Shown piece after piece: positions 3,053 through 46,917 of a DNA stretch of 50,199 bases. Source of the stretch: an uncultured Opitutales bacterium (lineage in GTDB: Bacteria; Verrucomicrobiota; Verrucomicrobiia; Opitutales; Intestinicryptomonadaceae); contig CALXNZ010000018.1 in the NCBI GenBank assembly GCA_944389885.1, positions 1-50,199 on the forward strand, written 5' to 3'. Below the pieces are notes generated by a model that saw only the letters and a program-made list of their open reading frames with translations, was not told the DNA's origin and ran no database searches. A program made the translations under genes and the position numbers. How positions within the stretch are numbered: position 1 is the first letter of the stretch; each line of letters starts with the position of its first letter.

Positions 3053-4072
3053 ATGAGCAATAGCGAAGGAAAAAAAGTAGTGCTAACTTGCGCCCAACCC
3101 ACAGGCAGACTGCATCTGGGCAATTATCTCGGGGCGGTTAGAAATTGGGTGGACCTCATGGAGGGGAACGAATGTTATTTCGGAGTAGTGGATATGCACG
3201 CCATCACAATACCATACTCCCCCGCAAATTTGAGGGCAAACGTATATGAATGCGCCGCCCAATATATGGCATGCGGGCTCGATCCTGAAAAATGCAACCT
3301 CTTTCTGCAAAGCTCCATAATAGGGCACGCGGAACTCGCATGGATACTGGGCTGCATATGCCCCATAGGAGCCCTCGAGAGAATGACCCAATACAAGGAC
3401 AAATCGCGCAAGCACAAGGACGCCCTCAACAGCGGATTGCTGTACTATCCCGTTCTCATGGCAGCCGACATACTAATTTACGACGCCGATATCGTCCCCG
3501 TGGGGGAAGACCAAAAACAACATATAGAACTCACCCGCGATATTGCGCAAAAATTCAACAATACATACTCCGACACCTTTAAGCTGCCGGAAGCCGTGAT
3601 ACCGAAAGCGGGGGCCCGCATAATGTCCCTGCAAGACCCGTCAAGCAAGATGTCGAAATCCGATCCAAACCAGAACGGCACCCTATACATTACGGATTCC
3701 CCAGATGTCTTGCGGAAGAAAATCATGAGCGCGGTCACAGACTCCGAGAGCGATGTCAGATTCGACCCGGAAAGCAAGCCCGGCGTATCGAACCTTATGA
3801 ACATACTTGAAGCCGTTTCCGGAGCGGGATTTGAAAGCATTGAAAGAGACTTCGCCGGTAAGGGTTATGGAGACTTTAAAAAGGCTGTGGCGGAAGCTCT
3901 CATAGAAAAATTAAAACCCGTGCGCGAGAGATATCTCGAACTGCGCGAAGACAAGGCATGCATAGAATCGGCGCTGGCCCGGGGCAATTCGGCTGCGCAG
4001 CGGCGCGCCAACCGCCTAATGTCTAAAATTTACCGCAAAGTTGGATTTTTAAACATAGAAAAAAGGCAATAA
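3053..4072 (+). CDS. trpS: Tryptophanyl-tRNA synthetase
   Basis: This is a class I aminoacyl-tRNA synthetase that charges tRNA-Trp in the cytoplasm. The HIGH-type signature is HLGN at residues 21-24 within TGRLHLGNYLGA, and KMSKS is at 199-203. Length (339) is typical for bacterial TrpRS. The ATG at 3053 is preceded by A/T-rich sequence with no clear Shine-Dalgarno motif. The stop is separated by one base from the next ATG at 4074, so trpS, the membrane coiled-coil gene and hisF probably form one transcript. Confidence 0.96.
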   Translation: MSNSEGKKVVLTCAQPTGRLHLGNYLGAVRNWVDLMEGNECYFGVVDMHAITIPYSPANLRANVYECAAQYMACGLDPEKCNLFLQSSIIGHAELAWILGCICPIGALERMTQYKDKSRKHKDALNSGLLYYPVLMAADILIYDADIVPVGEDQKQHIELTRDIAQKFNNTYSDTFKLPEAVIPKAGARIMSLQDPSSKMSKSDPNQNGTLYITDSPDVLRKKIMSAVTDSESDVRFDPESKPGVSNLMNILEAVSGAGFESIERDFAGKGYGDFKKAVAEALIEKLKPVRERYLELREDKACIESALARGNSAAQRRANRLMSKIYRKVGFLNIEKRQ

Positions 4073-39487: not shown

Positions 39488-40153
39488 TTACAAATTTATG
39501 TCGAAAACAATTTTCGCTAAATCGGCAAAATTGCTAAAATGTCCGACAGCTTTCGGGCACTCCGCAATCAAATCTTCCAAAGAATTGGATCCCCCGGCAA
39601 TTAGGGCGGAATCTACGCCGCCGTTAAATGCCGCAAGGTAATCGTACGGGGAATCTCCCACCACTAAAGACTCGGCGGCGTTAGCCCCGAGTTTTGCAAG
39701 GGCAAACTCGGTATATTTTGGATCGGGTTTGCGCGGCGAATGCAGAGAAGTCCCCACTATTTCGTCAAGATATTTATCCAATCCCAAATGAGCGAGTATT
39801 GGGCGGGCGCCGTCCTCTTGTTTATTTGTAAAACAAGCCGTTTTTTTCCCGCGCGATTTTAAAGCCTCTAAAATTTCGCGGGCGCCGTCCATGGCTTTGA
39901 GTCCCTCAAAAATATATTGCGGATATAGCTTTAAATATAATTCACCAAGTTTTGTGGCGGTTTCGTCGCCGCAATTTGCAAGTTTTTTAAGCGTTATAAA
40001 TATAGAGCCGCCAACTGTCCTAAATACGGTATCGTAATCGGGCGGCGTCATGCCGAACTCTTCAAAGGTTCGCTTTGCGCAAAGATAAATTGCGGTGTAG
40101 TTATCCACAAGCGTTCCGTCAAGGTCGAAAAATATATACTTGTAGTCTTTCAT
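39488..40153 (-). CDS. HAD-family phosphatase (phosphoglycolate phosphatase-like)
   Basis: A 221-residue HAD hydrolase. Motif I is FFDLDGTLVDN (about 8-18), motif II CFTNK, motif III the lysine in SPRKPDP, and motif IV VVGDSPYD. The cap is a four-helix type between motifs I and II, as in Gph. Phosphoglycolate phosphatase is the most common activity, but other small phosphates are possible. Its start overlaps the bioD stop by four bases, so it is expressed with the biotin genes. A biotin role is not implied by sequence, although a phosphatase at this place recurs in the reasoning about the operon. Confidence 0.87.
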   Translation of the reverse strand: MKDYKYIFFDLDGTLVDNYTAIYLCAKRTFEEFGMTPPDYDTVFRTVGGSIFITLKKLANCGDETATKLGELYLKLYPQYIFEGLKAMDGAREILEALKSRGKKTACFTNKQEDGARPILAHLGLDKYLDEIVGTSLHSPRKPDPKYTEFALAKLGANAAESLVVGDSPYDYLAAFNGGVDSALIAGGSNSLEDLIAECPKAVGHFSNFADLAKIVFDINL

Positions 40154-40815
40154 AATTTAGACAACTCCGACATTTCTATGAATCGAGTTTCGGGAAAATC
40201 ACGCGATAAAACCATTTTAAGATAATCCCGCGTTGAATTTACAAGGATTGAATCGTCCGCCTCAAAAACATTATAGACAACCCCCCATAAACTTATATTA
40301 AAAGCCCTGCAGGCGACAAAGCTCATCAAGGCGTGGTTTATGCTGCCAAGACGCGACGGCACGACGAGTATCAGAGACAATTTTTTGTCGGAAATATAGT
40401 TTGCAGTCAGATAATTTTCCGTCAGCGGAACCATTATTCCACCCGCTCCCTCCACGAATACGGTATCGAATTTCTCCAAAAGCCTTTTGGTGCAATCGGA
40501 AATTTTATCGAAGTTGAAACTGACTTTATCCACGGCGGAGGCTACATGCGGAGAAGCTGGATATGAGAGAACATACGGACATGTCGTCCCGTCTTTGTCC
40601 TCCGGAAAAATATCGGTTCCCATGATTCTCCTATGCTCAATTATATCCTCGGAGATGCCGGAGCAACCGGTCTGAATCAGCTTCTGCGTGGCGACGCGCA
40701 ATCCTGCCCGCGCGCATTCGCGCGCCAAGAATCCCGTACAGGCGGTTTTACCGATGCCCGTATCCGTACCGCTTACAAAAAAAGCCCCCTTCAAATTTTC
40801 GATGAAATTACGCAT
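40150..40815 (-). CDS. bioD: Dethiobiotin synthetase
   Basis: BioD closes the ureido ring of dethiobiotin from diaminopelargonate, CO2 and ATP. The 221-residue form from the ATG at 40815 begins MRNFIENLKGAFFVSGTDTG, with the P-loop GTDTGIGKT following at once, as in the family. The catalytic lysine segment is QKLIQTG, and EGAGGIMVPL completes the site. The frame is open to 40905 inside bioC, but that part is not family-like. The chosen start lies 25 bases inside the bioC end, which suggests coupling. Confidence 0.95.
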   Translation of the reverse strand: MRNFIENLKGAFFVSGTDTGIGKTACTGFLARECARAGLRVATQKLIQTGCSGISEDIIEHRRIMGTDIFPEDKDGTTCPYVLSYPASPHVASAVDKVSFNFDKISDCTKRLLEKFDTVFVEGAGGIMVPLTENYLTANYISDKKLSLILVVPSRLGSINHALMSFVACRAFNISLWGVVYNVFEADDSILVNSTRDYLKMVLSRDFPETRFIEMSELSKL

Positions 40816-42215
40816 ATGGGATTGTAAGTTAAGATAAATTTGCCAGCGCGCGAATATTTTTTCGCGTACATCTCCGAAAACCGCCTTATACGCGGCGGCG
40901 TCCAAAATTCCGAAAATTTTCCGTTAACTCCAGTGAGTTTCATATGTCTTAAAATATCAATGGGGGAATCAAATTCTAAATCCCTTTTCCAAGAAACGAA
41001 CTCGCAATCTCCAAATCCCGACGAATAAAGATATTTAGACAACTTATCCACATTCTCGTACTTCAATCCCTTCCCGCAAATATCCCTAATTTGCAGGAAA
41101 TTATCCTCGCCGAATGTCGAAAATGCGAGAATGCCCCCGCCCTTTAATGAAGGCGCGAGACGCTTTAAAAAACACGGCATATCGTCAATCCACTGGAAGC
41201 ATGAAGCCGACAATATGGCATCGCAGGAAGTAGGGAGAGGTATGCGGGTCGCGTCCCCCGCAAGCGGTTTTGATTTTCCGTCCCCGCGCGACTTTGCAGC
41301 CCTCAAACACATACCGGCGCTCAAGTCGTTAAAAATCCATTCGGATTCTCTAAAAGCCTCTTGCAGTTGCCTGCTTAGAAATCCGGTTCCGCAACCTATC
41401 TCCAAAATTCTCGAACAATTTGAAGGGACTTTTTGCGCTACAAGCTCAGCTAAGCGCACAGCGGCTTCCCTCTGCACCGTAGCGGAACTTTCGTAAGTAT
41501 CGACACTGCGCTCAAATGATATACGAGTTTTTTCCGGACACCTATTTAAAAAGGAAAAGGCCAAAGAAAACGCGCTTGTGTCAAAATGCCTGCACGCAGG
41601 AAGTTCAAAAGCGCAATTCCCCCATTCGTTTAATAAATTTCTCAAGGGGAAAATTTTGTCGCGCCCGCAGACTATTGCAGCACACCACGTTGCGGATACG
41701 GGGTCCGACGCCTTAAAAAAATCGAAAAAATCTTCAAGCTGTCCCCGTAAAGCCGTTCCGCCCTCCGAGGAAAGATATTTCCGCAGCATTGAAAGGTCCT
41801 CTTTCCCGCAAATTCTCTCATAAAAAGTCTCTCGAACTTCATCGCAAAAGGACGAGACTGTCTTTTGGAAAATTGCCGGAGGAATTCCGAATTTCAAATC
41901 GATAGGCCTTGTGGAGCCGGATATTGCAATCCTCCGCTCGGCCCCCTTCATAACCTTTCCCATGCGGGACAGCACGCCAACCCCGAACGACCAGCCTAAA
42001 ACATCGTAAGCGGCGTATTGACCCGCAATTTTTATTATGTCGCCCTCGCAAAAACCGAGGCCGTCTGCAAAAACAGCCAATAAATCCGCATTGCGCGGAA
42101 GAAAAGGCTTTAGAAACTCGACAAAAAATTCCCCGCACGCAAACCCTCCGAAGAAAACGAGCAATCTTTCGTTTTTACATGATGGGCGAGGATTTTTATA
42201 AAGAGAAAGTCTCAT
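40791..42215 (-). CDS. bioC: BioG-BioC fusion: pimeloyl-ACP methyl esterase and malonyl-ACP methyltransferase
   Basis: A 474-residue fusion. The N-terminal part (about 1-230) is a DUF452/BioG alpha/beta-hydrolase with a nucleophile at S76 in LGWSFGVG, and D186 (CGRDKIFP) and H210 (ACRHFD) as candidates for the rest of the triad. The C-terminal part (about 232-474) is BioC, with the SAM motif ILEIGCGTGFL (270-280) and the SCFQWIDD motif. BioC methylates malonyl-ACP to prime pimelate synthesis on the fatty-acid machinery, and BioG removes the methyl ester when the chain is complete. Having both in one protein joins the first and last steps and explains why there is no separate bioH. The ATG at 42215 is one base from the bioF stop. 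Confidence 0.9.
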   Translation of the reverse strand: MRLSLYKNPRPSCKNERLLVFFGGFACGEFFVEFLKPFLPRNADLLAVFADGLGFCEGDIIKIAGQYAAYDVLGWSFGVGVLSRMGKVMKGAERRIAISGSTRPIDLKFGIPPAIFQKTVSSFCDEVRETFYERICGKEDLSMLRKYLSSEGGTALRGQLEDFFDFFKASDPVSATWCAAIVCGRDKIFPLRNLLNEWGNCAFELPACRHFDTSAFSLAFSFLNRCPEKTRISFERSVDTYESSATVQREAAVRLAELVAQKVPSNCSRILEIGCGTGFLSRQLQEAFRESEWIFNDLSAGMCLRAAKSRGDGKSKPLAGDATRIPLPTSCDAILSASCFQWIDDMPCFLKRLAPSLKGGGILAFSTFGEDNFLQIRDICGKGLKYENVDKLSKYLYSSGFGDCEFVSWKRDLEFDSPIDILRHMKLTGVNGKFSEFWTPPRIRRFSEMYAKKYSRAGKFILTYNPICVISSKI

Positions 42216-42216
42216 G

Positions 42217-43407
42217 CTACAATACCGCAGATGCTATTTTTACTATGCGCTCCGAAATTTCGGAAACGGATTCGTAGGTCATATCCGCATTTAATGAGAA
42301 GCGTATTCGCGCAGTATTCTTTGGCACGGTTGGATAGCGGATTGCGGGCGCCCATATTTTTTCACGCGCCAGCGCCGATGAAAGTTTTGAAACGGATTCG
42401 TTCGAGCCGGCTACCAAAGCGCAAATCTGCGAGCCCCCCAAGACTCTTTCCGAGCCGAAGGCCCCGCGCAGGTCCCCGAAAAATTTCCCTGAAATACGTT
42501 CCAGATGAGTTCTTTCTTCGCGCATTCCAAGTGCTTTGCCGATTACAAAACGCGTCCAAATAGCACATATGGGAGCCATCGCCGTCGAGAATATAAACGG
42601 CCTGCAACGGTTCACCAAGAGCTCCTTGAAAGCTTCAGAACACACAGCAAACGCGCCCTGCGAGGCAAAAGCCTTGCCCAATGTACACATCAGTACATCT
42701 ACATCGGCCAAAATATTCTGCGCTTCGGCAAGCCCCAATCCCATGTCTCCAAATACACCCGCACCATGGGCTTCGTCGATATAAAGATAGGCGCCAAATT
42801 CACGTTTAAGTTCGGCAAGCCTATGCAAGCGGCTCAAATCTCCGTCCATGCTGAAGACGCTCTCCGTCACTATGAAAATTCGTTCATACTTGCCGGCATT
42901 TTCGGCAAGGAGGAAGCGCAAATTGTCATAATCGGAATGTTTATAGCGTTTCCATGCGCACGGCATAAGCTTTAGAGAATCCATAATGCTGGCATGCGAC
43001 AATCTGTCGCACAACACCAAGTCGCCCTTATCCAAAAGAGCGGGAAGAATTCCCGTATTCGCATGGTAGCCGCCGTTAAAGAGCAAAACGCTTTTTTTGG
43101 TTCCCGACGCCGACGAATACAATTCTGAAAGAAAATCCTCCAAGATTTCAAACGCCGGGTTATCTCCCGCCAAAAGGCGCGACGACGTCGATCCCATGAC
43201 AAATCCCAAATCTTTACTATTTCTTACATAGTCGAGAAACTCGTCCTGCCAATCCGCTTTGGCGCTAATTCCCAAATAGTCGTTGCTGGCAAAATTGAAA
43301 AACTCGTCCGGGCGAAATGCCTTAGCCCCTTTCACGCGCGATTCTATCAGGGTTCTGTAAAGTCCCGCATTCTCAATATCGCGCAATGTCTGCAAAACGT
43401 AGTCCAT
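42217..43407 (-). CDS. bioF: 8-amino-7-oxononanoate synthase
   Basis: BioF condenses pimeloyl-ACP (or -CoA) with L-alanine, a PLP-dependent alpha-oxoamine synthase. The 396-residue protein shows FASNDYLGI at the start, GSTSSRLLAG, GGYHANTG, the PLP-contacting DEAHGAGVFG (about 211-220) and the Schiff-base lysine K245 in CTLGKAFASQG. It is flush with bioA (no gap) and one base from the bioC fusion, in a polycistronic layout. Confidence 0.95.
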   Translation of the reverse strand: MDYVLQTLRDIENAGLYRTLIESRVKGAKAFRPDEFFNFASNDYLGISAKADWQDEFLDYVRNSKDLGFVMGSTSSRLLAGDNPAFEILEDFLSELYSSASGTKKSVLLFNGGYHANTGILPALLDKGDLVLCDRLSHASIMDSLKLMPCAWKRYKHSDYDNLRFLLAENAGKYERIFIVTESVFSMDGDLSRLHRLAELKREFGAYLYIDEAHGAGVFGDMGLGLAEAQNILADVDVLMCTLGKAFASQGAFAVCSEAFKELLVNRCRPFIFSTAMAPICAIWTRFVIGKALGMREERTHLERISGKFFGDLRGAFGSERVLGGSQICALVAGSNESVSKLSSALAREKIWAPAIRYPTVPKNTARIRFSLNADMTYESVSEISERIVKIASAVL

Positions 43408-44682
43408 TTAGTCCAAAGCCTCCCCAATTGCCGCACATATCTTTTCTATATCGGAGTCGGAAGATATGTAGGCAGGCATAGTGTAAATAAGATGCCCGAA
43501 AGGCCTGAGCCAAACGCCGCACTCCACCAAACGCTCCTGCACGCCCTTTATGTCCACAGGCTCTTTTGTCTGCACAACCCCTATTGCCCCCAAAACTCTA
43601 ACGTCTGAAACGGAATTGCGCGAAATTAGGGGATTCAACCCCTCCTCAAGTTTGCCCTGTATTCTGCGGACTTTAGCGATAGTGTCTCCATTCAAAATTA
43701 AATCAAGGCTCGCATTTGCCGCCGCGCAAGCCAGAGGATTGGCCATAAAAGTTGGGCCGTGCATAAAGAGCCCGGGCTCCCCGTCCGAAATTGTACAGGC
43801 CACATCGTCGCTGGCAATAGTCGCGGCAAAGCTCATATATCCGCCGGTAAGAGCTTTTCCCAAACACATTATGTCGGCTTCCACACCCGCATAATTTTCC
43901 GCAAACATTTCTCCGGCGCGGCCAAACCCAGTAGCGATTTCGTCTAATATAAGAAGTATCCCCATTTCGTCGCAGGCTTCCCGCAAAAGCGAGAGATATT
44001 TTGGGTGGTAAAACCACATGCCTCCGGCTCCCTGGACTATGGGCTCTATTATTACCGCGGCAATTTCATCGCGGTGCGAATACAGGAGTTCGCGCATAGG
44101 CGAAAAATCGGAATCGTCCCAAGTGCCGCCGAAGCGCGTGAAAGGTCGAGGCGCAAAAAACTGCGGAGCGAGGGCCCCCGTGAAAAGTCCGTGCATTCCG
44201 TTTACCGGATCGCACACAGACATTGCATTCCATGTATCGCCGTGATATCCCCCCCTTGCAGTGGCAAAACGGGACTTGCTTTTCAATCCCCTGGCCCTCC
44301 AATATTGCAGGGCCATTTTCATCGCCACCTCTACCGACACCGACCCCGAATCGCAAAAAAATACTTTGTCAAGGCGTTTTGGGGTTATTTCCACCAAACG
44401 TTTGGCAAGTGATACGGCCGGTTCGTGGGTGAACCCCCCAAACATCACATGCGACATTTTTTCAAGCTGCAACTTTACAGCTTCGTTCATAACCGCATTG
44501 TTATATCCGTGCACGACCGCCCACCACGACGACATTCCGTCTATCAATTCCCTGCCGTCGGCCAAGCGCAAATGCACCCCGCTTGCCGAATCCACAACAT
44601 AAGGCGGTATCGGATTGCGCATTGAAGCGTAAGGGTGCCATACATGGCCTTTATCGTAATCTAAGATCTCTTTAGTATTCAT
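43408..44682 (-). CDS. bioA: Adenosylmethionine-8-amino-7-oxononanoate aminotransferase
   Basis: BioA transfers the amino group of SAM to 8-amino-7-oxononanoate, giving diaminopelargonate. The 424-residue protein from the ATG at 44682 begins MNTKEILDYDKGHVWHPYASM, with the WHPY motif expected of BioA. It has WWAVVHGYNN, DSGSVSVEVAMK for phosphate binding, LDEIATGFGRAG, and the PLP lysine K276 in CLGKALTGGY. The frame is open eight codons upstream to 44706, but the internal ATG is family-like. The start overlaps the bioB end by 11 bases. Confidence 0.95.
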   Translation of the reverse strand: MNTKEILDYDKGHVWHPYASMRNPIPPYVVDSASGVHLRLADGRELIDGMSSWWAVVHGYNNAVMNEAVKLQLEKMSHVMFGGFTHEPAVSLAKRLVEITPKRLDKVFFCDSGSVSVEVAMKMALQYWRARGLKSKSRFATARGGYHGDTWNAMSVCDPVNGMHGLFTGALAPQFFAPRPFTRFGGTWDDSDFSPMRELLYSHRDEIAAVIIEPIVQGAGGMWFYHPKYLSLLREACDEMGILLILDEIATGFGRAGEMFAENYAGVEADIMCLGKALTGGYMSFAATIASDDVACTISDGEPGLFMHGPTFMANPLACAAANASLDLILNGDTIAKVRRIQGKLEEGLNPLISRNSVSDVRVLGAIGVVQTKEPVDIKGVQERLVECGVWLRPFGHLIYTMPAYISSDSDIEKICAAIGEALD

Positions 44683-45610
44683 AACCGAGCCTGTCGAGCA
44701 TTGCAAAATCCGCGCTTATCGCGGCGCCTTCGGTAGTAAGCATATCTCCCATAATGAGCGAACTCACCCCCGATTTCATGGCTGTTTCCTGAAGTTTCCC
44801 GATTCTCGTGCGCCCGCCCGCGAAACGTATGTGAGCCTTAGGATTTAGTATCTTGAAAAAGGCGAACGCCCTCAAGATGTCGTCGTCCGGCAAAGGAGGC
44901 ATTGATTCAAGCGGCGTATTTCTTATGGGCTGAAGGATATTTACAGGAATCGAATCCACCCCTATGGTCCGAAGGACGTATGCAAGTTCAACGCGCTGGG
45001 CAGCAGTCTCTCCCATTCCTATAATTCCCCCGCTGCAAACAGTAAGTCCAACCCCGCGAGCGGCGCGCAGAGTCGCAATTTTATCGTCGATAGTATGCGT
45101 GGTGCAGAGTTCGCGGAATTTTGAAGGAGCCGTCTCAAGGTTGCAATGAAAGCGCGTCATTCCCGCATCGGCAAGACGCTTAAGCTGCTTGGCATTGAGA
45201 AGGCCGAGAGAACCGCAAAGAGAAATTTTTACATTTTTAGCTATCAGCTCGAAACATTTTGCGACCCTTTCGACGTCTGAATCCGAAAGAGTCCTTCCGC
45301 TCGTCACCAGCGAGAATCTCCCTATGCCGGCGGCCTCAGACCTCCGGGCATGTTCGAGGGCGAGTTCGGGAGAGCACAACCCGTAAACTTCGCAGCCTGT
45401 CGGATTGCGGAACGACTGCGCGCACCATTTGCAATCTTCAGAGCATTTCCCGCTGCGGGCGTTCATTATGGAGCAGGTGTCCACAAAATTCCCCTGATAT
45501 TTCTCTCGCAGCGAATTTGCGAGCCCGCATAACTCCGGCAAGGGAGTGTCGAGGCAGAGTTTTAGAGCCTCGCCGTAGGTTAAGTGGCCGTTTAAATCAG
45601 ATTCATTCAT
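44672..45610 (-). CDS. bioB: Biotin synthase
   Basis: BioB is the radical-SAM sulfur-insertion enzyme that turns dethiobiotin into biotin. Counting from the ATG at 45610, the 4Fe-4S cysteines C56, C60 and C63 lie in SGKCSEDCKWCAQS. Further family motifs are HNLETAPS-like CNLETAPSKF, GGIIGMGET and FAGGRTRI. The frame includes a TTG at 45628, but the ATG six codons later is preferred. It is the first gene of the biotin operon and is divergent from dapF. I searched the upstream gap by eye for a BirA-type inverted repeat and found none. Confidence 0.96.
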   Translation of the reverse strand: MNESDLNGHLTYGEALKLCLDTPLPELCGLANSLREKYQGNFVDTCSIMNARSGKCSEDCKWCAQSFRNPTGCEVYGLCSPELALEHARRSEAAGIGRFSLVTSGRTLSDSDVERVAKCFELIAKNVKISLCGSLGLLNAKQLKRLADAGMTRFHCNLETAPSKFRELCTTHTIDDKIATLRAARGVGLTVCSGGIIGMGETAAQRVELAYVLRTIGVDSIPVNILQPIRNTPLESMPPLPDDDILRAFAFFKILNPKAHIRFAGGRTRIGKLQETAMKSGVSSLIMGDMLTTEGAAISADFAMLDRLGYEY

Positions 45611-45801
45611 TGCAATTATAAAATTCAACTAACGGAATGCGTTTGATGCGCGAAAACCGTAAGGTATGGAAATAGAGAAGAGAATTCAATTTTAAAGCCG
45701 TGTCAAGGAATTCAAAGTTTATGCCCGGAGAACCTTTGATTTTTCATGGGCACAGGGGAAAATACTTGAAAAAATTTCTTCGGATTCCATTCTGCCCGAC
45801 C

Positions 45802-46665
45802 ATGAAATTTTATAAATATCACGCACTTGGAAACGACTATCTCGTTCTGGACCCCGCCCATTCTCCAAAATGCCCCGAAGGAATTGACGTGGTAAAAATA
45901 TGCCACCGCAACTTCGGGCTCGGATCCGACGGAATACTATTTGGGCCGGAAAAGTCGGACAGGGCTGATTTTAAACTTAGGATATTGAACCCCGACGCAA
46001 GTGAAGCCGAAAAAAGCGGAAACGGCCTCCGCATATTTTCCCGCTACCTTTTTGATTCCGGGCGCGTATCCGAAGGCAAACCGTTCACGGTGGATACGCT
46101 CGGAGGCGTTGTAAAATGCCTGGTTGAAGAAGGCGGAAATCTCATAACCGTGGAGATGGGCAAAGTGAGCTTCGACTCGGAAAAAATTCCCGTAAACGGC
46201 TCCAAAAGAGAAGTTATTAACGAAGAATTTGAAATATGCGGCAAAAAATATAAATATTGCTGCGCAACCGTCGGGAATCCGCATTGCGTGCTGCCGATGG
46301 AAAAAGTTTCCGCAAAATTGGCAAAAGAAATAGGCCCTTATATAGAAAATATGACGAGCCTTTTCCCAAACCGCACTAACGTGCAATTCTTGCAAGTCCT
46401 CGACAGAAATAACATCAAGATAGAAATATGGGAGAGGGGCGCCGGCTACACTCTCGCCTCCGGCAGCAGTTCAAGCGCCGCCGCAAGCGTCGCGTACAAG
46501 CTCGGGCTTGTAGATGGAGACATAACCGTGCACATGGAGGGCGGAAACCTATCCATAAAAATATCTCCGGATTTCGACATACTTATGGCTGGCCCGGCTA
46601 CAAGAGTCGGAATATACGAAATGTTTGACGATGTATTGAAACAAAATATTCCCGATTCCGAATAA
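45802..46665 (+). CDS. dapF: Diaminopimelate epimerase-like protein, both catalytic cysteines replaced by serine
   Basis: A 287-residue DapF-family protein. The ATG at 45802 gives MKFYKYHALGNDYLVLDP, the family start; the frame is open 34 codons upstream but that part is not family-like. Conserved marks include GSDGILFG, NPDASEAEKSGNGLR and GNPHCV and ERGAGYTLASG. The two catalytic residues, normally Cys in CGNG and in ETLACG, are S72 (codon 46015-46017) and S220 (codon 46459-46461). In the standard enzyme the two cysteines act as the acid and base that invert LL- to meso-diaminopimelate. The rest of the fold is intact, so a relative with altered chemistry or a related racemase is likely. It is divergent from bioB. 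Confidence 0.9.
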   Translation: MKFYKYHALGNDYLVLDPAHSPKCPEGIDVVKICHRNFGLGSDGILFGPEKSDRADFKLRILNPDASEAEKSGNGLRIFSRYLFDSGRVSEGKPFTVDTLGGVVKCLVEEGGNLITVEMGKVSFDSEKIPVNGSKREVINEEFEICGKKYKYCCATVGNPHCVLPMEKVSAKLAKEIGPYIENMTSLFPNRTNVQFLQVLDRNNIKIEIWERGAGYTLASGSSSSAAASVAYKLGLVDGDITVHMEGGNLSIKISPDFDILMAGPATRVGIYEMFDDVLKQNIPDSE

Positions 46666-46746: not shown

Positions 46747-46917
46747 ATGCCAAGAGAAATAGTCATTATTGAATGCACGGAAGCACGCAAGGAAGGCAAA
46801 TCGCCTTCCCGCTATATGACCACGCGCAATCCGCGCAAACAGGCTGAAAAGGTTGAAAAAATTAAATACAACCCTGCCCTAAAGCGCAGAACCTTGCACA
46901 GGGAAATCAAGAAATAG
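46747..46917 (+). CDS. rpmG: 50S ribosomal protein L33
   Basis: A short gene for a 56-residue basic protein with the L33 pattern: PREIVIIECTEARKEG at the start, SRYMTTRNPRKQ in the middle, and KYNPALKRRTLHREIKK at the end. Only one cysteine is left, so this is the non-zinc (C-minus) form of L33. A clear Shine-Dalgarno-like AAGGA lies about eight bases before the ATG, one of the few in the window. A strong terminator follows, so it is monocistronic. Confidence 0.93.
   Translation: MPREIVIIECTEARKEGKSPSRYMTTRNPRKQAEKVEKIKYNPALKRRTLHREIKK

Follow-up and report, generated by a model that had tools for sequence, protein, structure and literature searches.

A widespread subfamily of diaminopimelate epimerase with serine at both catalytic cysteine positions

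The window analysed here is a stretch of 50,199 nucleotides from an uncultured Opitutales bacterium. It encodes a protein of the diaminopimelate epimerase (DapF) family in which both catalytic cysteines are replaced by serine. By sequence, such Ser/Ser proteins form a monophyletic and widespread DapF subfamily present in several phyla. The window gene is likely to be the organism's working LL-diaminopimelate (LL-DAP) epimerase, although this role is inferred and there are no activity data. The serine pair is very likely neither an error nor the mark of a decaying paralogue.

Serine at the two catalytic positions

The dapF-type gene lies at 45802..46665 on the + strand. Its 287 amino acid translation contains EAEKSGNGLRIF and WERGAGYTLASGSSSSA. 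The protein is a full match to the TIGR00652 DapF equivalog model (227 bits, cut-off 114.65) and the gene is therefore no chance open reading frame. Assignment to the Ser/Ser subfamily rests on the translation, the TIGR00652 match and an AF2 model. Membership of the PhzF, proline racemase or CntK families was not met; DAP_epimerase was the only Pfam family over cut-off. The model for the Chlamydia-type bifunctional DapF/glutamate racemase (NF038284) gave 61.3 bits, below its cut-off of 350.

The initial annotation, made from the sequence alone, had claimed that an AGC and a TCC codon place serine at both acid/base sites. This claim held when checked against the raw sequence. Ser72 (AGC, 46015..46017, + strand) replaces catalytic Cys73 and gives SGNG for CGNG. 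Ser220 (TCC, 46459..46461, + strand) replaces catalytic Cys217 and gives YTLASG for ETLACG. The two residues align with C73 and C217 of both the E. coli and the H. influenzae enzymes. After removal of duplicates, our alignment held 133 Ser/Ser and 40 Cys/Cys proteins; each site was serine in 133/133 of the former and cysteine in 40/40 of the latter. In the solved DapF chains that were compared both columns are cysteine, the sole exception being the engineered C217S chain 2q9j. The PDB alignments that we read include no natural DapF with two hydroxyl residues at these positions, and there was no closely matching solved structure.

The AF2 model has the DapF fold (mean pLDDT 93.9), with helices that start at residues 73 and 221, right after Ser72 and Ser220. 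Using this model, the best PDB match found by Foldseek was Anabaena DapF (9mro_A; E 9e-32, 38% identity). The first 26 PDB matches were DapF or O-ureidoserine racemase. Comparison with PhzF and proline racemase had been suggested in the initial annotation; structures of both types rank below all DapF.

Residues that bind the substrate are kept. Identical in all 133 Ser-type proteins (E. coli numbering) are N11, N64, G74, N75, N157, H159, N190, E208, R209 and T214. In the numbering of the window protein, the ligands of the distal DAP amino acid are N63, N159, N193, E211 and R212, and all are invariant. They correspond to N66, N164, N197, E215 and R216, the residues that contact the distal amino acid of DAP in Anabaena DapF (PMC12039745). 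Asn63 (Asn64 in E. coli) is encoded at 45988..45990, and its role is taken from PMC12039745 and PMC5296763. Asn159-Pro-His161 (N157/H159; 46276..46284) supplies a DAP ligand and the catalytic histidine. Glu211-Arg212 (E208/R209; 46432..46437) supplies distal ligands and the catalytic glutamate. All of these codons are on the + strand. In C. glutamicum DapF, alanine mutants at residues including N15, N74, N85, N159, N194, E212, R213 and T223 nearly abolish activity (PMC5296763). These eight residue types are all kept in the Ser type, with Thr223 as Ser. The window protein has the equivalog match, fold, DAP-binding residues and pathway context (below) expected of a DapF; it lacks the two catalytic cysteines.

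A further claim of the initial annotation, that all other family motifs are intact, failed in part. The changes F13Y, M72K, C79I, E213Y and G220S (E. coli numbering) accompany the serines. In the numbering of the window protein the co-varying set is Tyr13, Lys71, Ile78, Tyr216 and Ser223. Tyr13 (TAT, 45838..45840, + strand) is Tyr in 133/133 Ser-type proteins, whereas Cys-type proteins have Phe (36/40) or Tyr (4/40). Lys71 (AAA, 46012..46014, + strand), directly before Ser72, is Lys in 129/133 and Ile in the remaining 4/133; Met occupies this position in 36/40 Cys-type proteins. Tyr216 (TAC, 46447..46449, + strand), the equivalent of E. coli Glu213, is again Tyr in 133/133, and is E, I, V or N in the Cys type. 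The changes to Ile78 and Ser223 are found in 133/133 and 132/133 Ser-type proteins, respectively. So coordinated a set of residues favours a re-tuned active site and disfavours decay.

Spread and ancestry of the Ser/Ser subfamily

Scanning named genome contigs with the window protein identified 80 loci. SGNG is present in every one, and Ser occupies the second site wherever the locus extends that far. Among the sources are Opitutales/Puniceicoccales, Limisphaerales, Methylacidimicrobium, heterocystous cyanobacteria, Desulfobacteraceae, SAR324, KSB1, Anaerolineae, Planctomycetota, a Christensenella-labelled bin and Chitinispirillia. Within the same order (87 genomes), homologues of at least 39% identity that were fetched whole are all Ser/Ser. 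In the wider phylum, fetched homologues are Ser/Ser at 48% identity or above; those at 36% or below, where fetched and readable, are Cys/Cys. We therefore rejected homologues 30-36% identical as members of the Ser type, since every one fetched and readable at the site has Cys.

A quick maximum-likelihood tree of 129 of the aligned proteins has a branch, with SH-aLRT support of 100, that sets all Ser/Ser sequences apart. Thus, a single switch suffices. At the DNA level, 140/140 distinct copies encode serine at both positions, with AGY and TCN codons each used at each position, the choice varying between lineages. This codon usage shows that the residue is truly serine, and reflects neither recoding nor error. 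Pairwise comparison of the window gene with close orthologues gave a dN of 0.13-0.18 with dS near saturation; the divergence is almost wholly synonymous. We take these values to indicate strong purifying selection on Ser-type dapF.

Could the serines stem from a sequencing or assembly error, or belong to a paralogue beside a canonical DapF? The organism's own genome assembly (2.21 Mb, 27 contigs) is 95.9% complete, which leaves some room for a second copy missing from the assembly. However, the same Ser/Ser pair is present in genomes of the same genus and in all relatives, and error at both codons is ruled out by the 133 distinct proteins and 140 distinct DNA copies. Furthermore, the only PF01678 protein in the organism's own genome is the window protein, and PF01678 scans found no second copy in same-genus genomes, including the three-contig assembly G036. 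This explanation is all but excluded.

The initial annotation had noted that a canonical Cys-containing copy elsewhere would make the Ser copy a paralogue. None was found by the PF01678 scan of the organism's own genome; the situation does arise in cyanobacteria, whose genomes hold a canonical gene as well as the Ser one. More than one PF01678 protein was found in heterocystous cyanobacteria, some Desulfobacteraceae, a Planctomycetota, a Bacillota and a Granulosicoccaceae bin. Where it was read, the other copy is Cys-type (cyanobacteria, Planctomycetota L176, Granulosicoccaceae L178 and one Desulfobacteraceae, L179). In the heterocystous cyanobacteria, the canonical Cys-DapF genes (L163-L173, L175, L177) and the Ser-DapF genes (L049, L051, L053, L056-L058, L061) lie in unrelated neighbourhoods. 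The Ser copy in such multi-copy genomes is possibly redundant or specialised. Of the 34 named genomes that we examined, 15 or more have only the Ser copy.

Comparison with known enzymes and a putative mechanism

Cofactor-independent racemases are explained by a low-pKa thiol/thiolate pair which, on this account, enables deprotonation of an amino-acid alpha-carbon with a pKa of about 29. Current accounts have a Cys thiol/thiolate pair as the catalyst and consider the pKa of Ser and Thr to count against them (PMC8142540). Canonical DapF proteins (TIGR00652/PF01678; Anabaena 9MRO, H. influenzae 1GQZ, E. coli 4IJZ, C. glutamicum 5M47) share with the window protein the fold, the DAP ligands, the His and Glu partners, the GNG and GSS helix caps and the operon partners. 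The window protein differs from them in both Cys to Ser changes and in Tyr13, Lys71, Ile78, Tyr216 and Ser223. We found no description of a Ser/Ser DapF in the open-licence PMC literature searched.

We propose that Ser72 and Ser220, at helix N-termini and on opposite faces of the substrate, would form the base/acid pair for a 1,1-proton transfer. Helix dipoles, backbone NH groups and the co-varying Tyr13, Lys71, Tyr216 and Ser223 would tune the acidity of the two serines, and this arrangement would replace the thiol/thiolate pair. In the absence of activity data, LL-DAP as the substrate is a strong inference; the assignment of the two serines as the acid/base pair is a moderate one.

There are partial precedents. 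The 4-hydroxyproline 2-epimerase B9JQV3, of the proline racemase superfamily, is a two-base enzyme of the same fold class in which a natural hydroxyl stands in for one thiol (PMC4113996). A natural Ser93/Cys236 pair works in hydroxyproline 2-epimerase, and a Ser90/Thr256 pair in a dehydratase (PMC4113996). B9JQV3 differs from the window protein in having only one Ser site and hydroxyproline as its substrate, and the similarity is remote (4lb0, 15% identity). The Cys/Thr aspartate/glutamate racemases EcL-DER and MMP0739 also carry a hydroxyl residue in place of one catalytic Cys (PMC8142540). Unlike the window protein, they belong to another fold family and keep one Cys, and EcL-DER is reported to be effectively one-directional (PMC8142540). 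The H. influenzae DapF crystal mutants C73S and C217S (2Q9H, 2Q9J) carry the window protein's substitution at each site, singly. These are engineered proteins that keep the other Cys, are described as slowed and lack the correlated residues. Two observations on cysteine enzymes weigh against serine chemistry, as does the unfavourable pKa of serine for a thiolate-type mechanism: a Cys-to-Ser exchange greatly impairs HisR (PMC11602996), and DapF C73S/C217S served as slow crystallisation mutants (PMC12039745).

It is possible that the protein is a DAP epimerase in which Tyr13, Tyr216, Lys71 or the kept His161/Glu211 takes up and returns the proton, the role of the serines being limited to positioning or hydrogen bonding. 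Consistent with this, serine on its own is a poor base towards carbon, Tyr13 and Tyr216 match the serines in their invariance, and Lys71 adjoins Ser72 and is nearly always kept. Conversely, both serines are invariant and lie exactly at the catalytic thiol positions at helix N-termini, Ser is reported as a base in the Ser/Cys hydroxyproline epimerases (PMC4113996), and four members lack Lys71. Should the serines prove not to act as bases, the invariant Tyr13 and Tyr216, or Lys71, would be next in line.

We prefer the serine pair as base and acid. If this reading is true, nature would have a working thiol-free form of a textbook reaction; this is a suggestion that no activity data yet support. 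A Ser/Ser clade in an enzyme of cell wall and lysine synthesis makes the thiol/thiolate explanation directly testable inside a naturally adapted scaffold. Ser-type DapFs, which are annotated as ordinary, should also resist thiol-directed inhibitors.

The diaminopimelate pathway around Ser-type dapF

Our check of the organism's own pathway spans DapL and the downstream enzymes; the upstream dapA and dapB were outside the searches. A TIGR03542 search for DapL in this genome gave nothing over cut-off. A second type of DapL (NF004937; 639.7 bits, cut-off 585) was found by way of the gene neighbouring Ser-dapF at another Opitutales locus, L038. Hence, absence of DapL from this genome was rejected. 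MurE matches the model for the DAP-adding type (538 bits, cut-off 373) and has the DNPRGED motif. A LysA-like protein scores 267 bits, just under the TIGR01048 cut-off of 297.9. Meso-DAP dehydrogenase (Ddh) was not found in this 95.9% complete genome. With DapL, MurE of the DAP type and a LysA-like protein encoded, and with neither Ddh nor a second DapF found, the window protein is the sole visible candidate for conversion of LL-DAP to meso-DAP. The possibility raised in the initial annotation that another enzyme makes meso-DAP is largely excluded for this genome, within the limits of its completeness. In the pathway that we infer, with good support, DapL would make LL-DAP, Ser-DapF would epimerise one alpha-carbon to give meso-DAP, and MurE and LysA would consume the product.

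Some other Ser-type genes lie among genes of the same pathway. A candidate division KSB1 genome (L052) has the colinear run lysC-dapB-dapA-dapF-dapL-lysA, in which dapF is Ser-type and is the genome's only PF01678 gene. In this run, lysC, dapB, dapA, dapF and dapL are over their cut-offs. At the Opitutales locus L038, dapL is directly upstream and ends at 3416; the Ser-dapF alignment starts at 3419 (3 bases). Cys-type dapF genes elsewhere in the phylum (L201, L205, L207, L209) also adjoin dapL, and the two types therefore occupy the same operon position. An aminotransferase at L100, only 36% identical to NF004937-type DapL, is not claimed as DapL.

We examined the phyletic pattern in 74 genomes of the order that are at least 90% complete. 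The single-contig genome G067, of the same genus, was left out as uninformative; no search found candidates in it, even for common aminotransferases. Ser-DapF is present in 58 genomes, Cys-DapF only in 8 and a Ser/Cys hybrid in 1; the two types occur together in just one of the 58. DapL, of one kind or the other, was found in 55/58 genomes with Ser-DapF and never without a DapF. Ddh, at over 430 bits, is present in each of four genomes that have neither DapF nor DapL and that represent two lineages (G016 and genus g35). Similarly, in the phylum sample, Ddh is present in 12/13 genomes without a DapF-like gene. Fisher tests gave p values of 4e-7 for DapF with DapL and 1e-8 for exclusion between Ser and Cys types; these take no account of relatedness and serve only as an indication. 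The pattern fits a single step that can be filled by Ser-DapF, Cys-DapF or Ddh, an inference from co-occurrence.

Some genomes depart from this pattern. Ser-type genomes that also have Ddh are G035, G081, G211, G192 and G046. In the Opitutaceae-like family f14 (G211, G035, G192) a Ddh-like protein of ~310-320 bits occurs beside Ser-DapF, and G035 also has DapL. Three further genomes of the order, the reduced G044, G061 and G075 (0.8-1.0 Mb), lack DapF, DapL and Ddh, which suggests that DAP synthesis has been lost or that these bacteria depend on a host. In G064, Ser-type and Cys-type dapF occur together (L162, L156; G064:C75, G064:C99), and sister genomes in the genus are Cys-only. This double set may be a replacement caught midway, or contamination. 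Another same-order genome of ~1.0 Mb encodes a divergent DapF-like protein (L161, G034:C7:18600-19700) with a mixed pair, the first site being Ser (EMSGNGVR) and the second Cys (RTKSCGSGAA).

Chemical data are available for Opitutaceae. Using GC/MS, Rast et al. (2017) detected DAP, along with ornithine, in Opitutus terrae and three Lacunisphaera strains (PMC5303756). The amount was ~1/10 of that in E. coli, TLC did not detect DL-DAP and the stereochemistry is unresolved (PMC5303756). An ordinary 'DapF' was listed within the aminotransferase pathway of these bacteria (PMC5303756). All Opitutaceae-like genomes that we sampled have a Ser-type homologue. G211, which we take to be the O. terrae chromosome, also has a Ddh-like gene and so O. 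terrae alone is no proof that Ser-DapF is an epimerase. Our results bear on how DAP is made in subdivision 4 Verrucomicrobia, which have long been described as DAP-free.

Ser-DapF could instead be a racemase, isomerase or dehydratase for another compound, with meso-DAP made otherwise. The fold is reused in PhzF, proline racemase, CntK and PddB. In addition, the cyanobacterial Ser copy coexists with canonical DapF; no lysine genes were found adjoining it, and its neighbourhoods gave no clear functional clue. Against this, all the distal DAP ligands are invariant, the operon context is that of DAP and lysine synthesis, co-occurrence with DapL is tight and the organism's own genome has no alternative epimerase or Ddh. 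We regard this explanation as unlikely.

Less likely still is that Ser-DapF is weak or dead, and that LL-DAP goes straight into the wall or meso-DAP is scavenged. The low DAP content of Opitutaceae, and the damage done by Cys-to-Ser changes in canonical enzymes, would fit. However, the gene is under strong purifying selection and the active site is invariant across phyla. LysA needs meso-DAP, and Ser-DapF is the sole copy in genomes with a LysA-like gene (the organism's own and L052). This makes an inactive enzyme very unlikely.

The reading that we favour, a distinct DapF subfamily with serine chemistry, was one option in the initial annotation. It is supported by monophyly, kept ligands, operon context and phyletic pattern; serine catalysis itself is inferred, without activity data. 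A bolder version is that this is a thiol-free, cofactor-independent epimerase, in which two tuned serines and co-evolved Tyr/Lys/Tyr residues would drive two-base transfer on LL-DAP. Such an enzyme would have arisen once, and would be the only epimerisation route to meso-DAP in the majority of the Opitutales that we sampled and in representatives of several further phyla. We lean towards this version, by a narrow margin.

Downstream of the window gene, and outside the pathway, is rpmG (46747..46917, + strand), which encodes ribosomal protein L33 (Pfam PF00471). Divergently upstream, on the - strand at 40150-45628 of the window, is a biotin cluster of bioB, bioA, bioF, a BioG-BioC fusion and bioD. 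The fusion, which joins a BioG-like esterase to a BioC-like methyltransferase, is notable.
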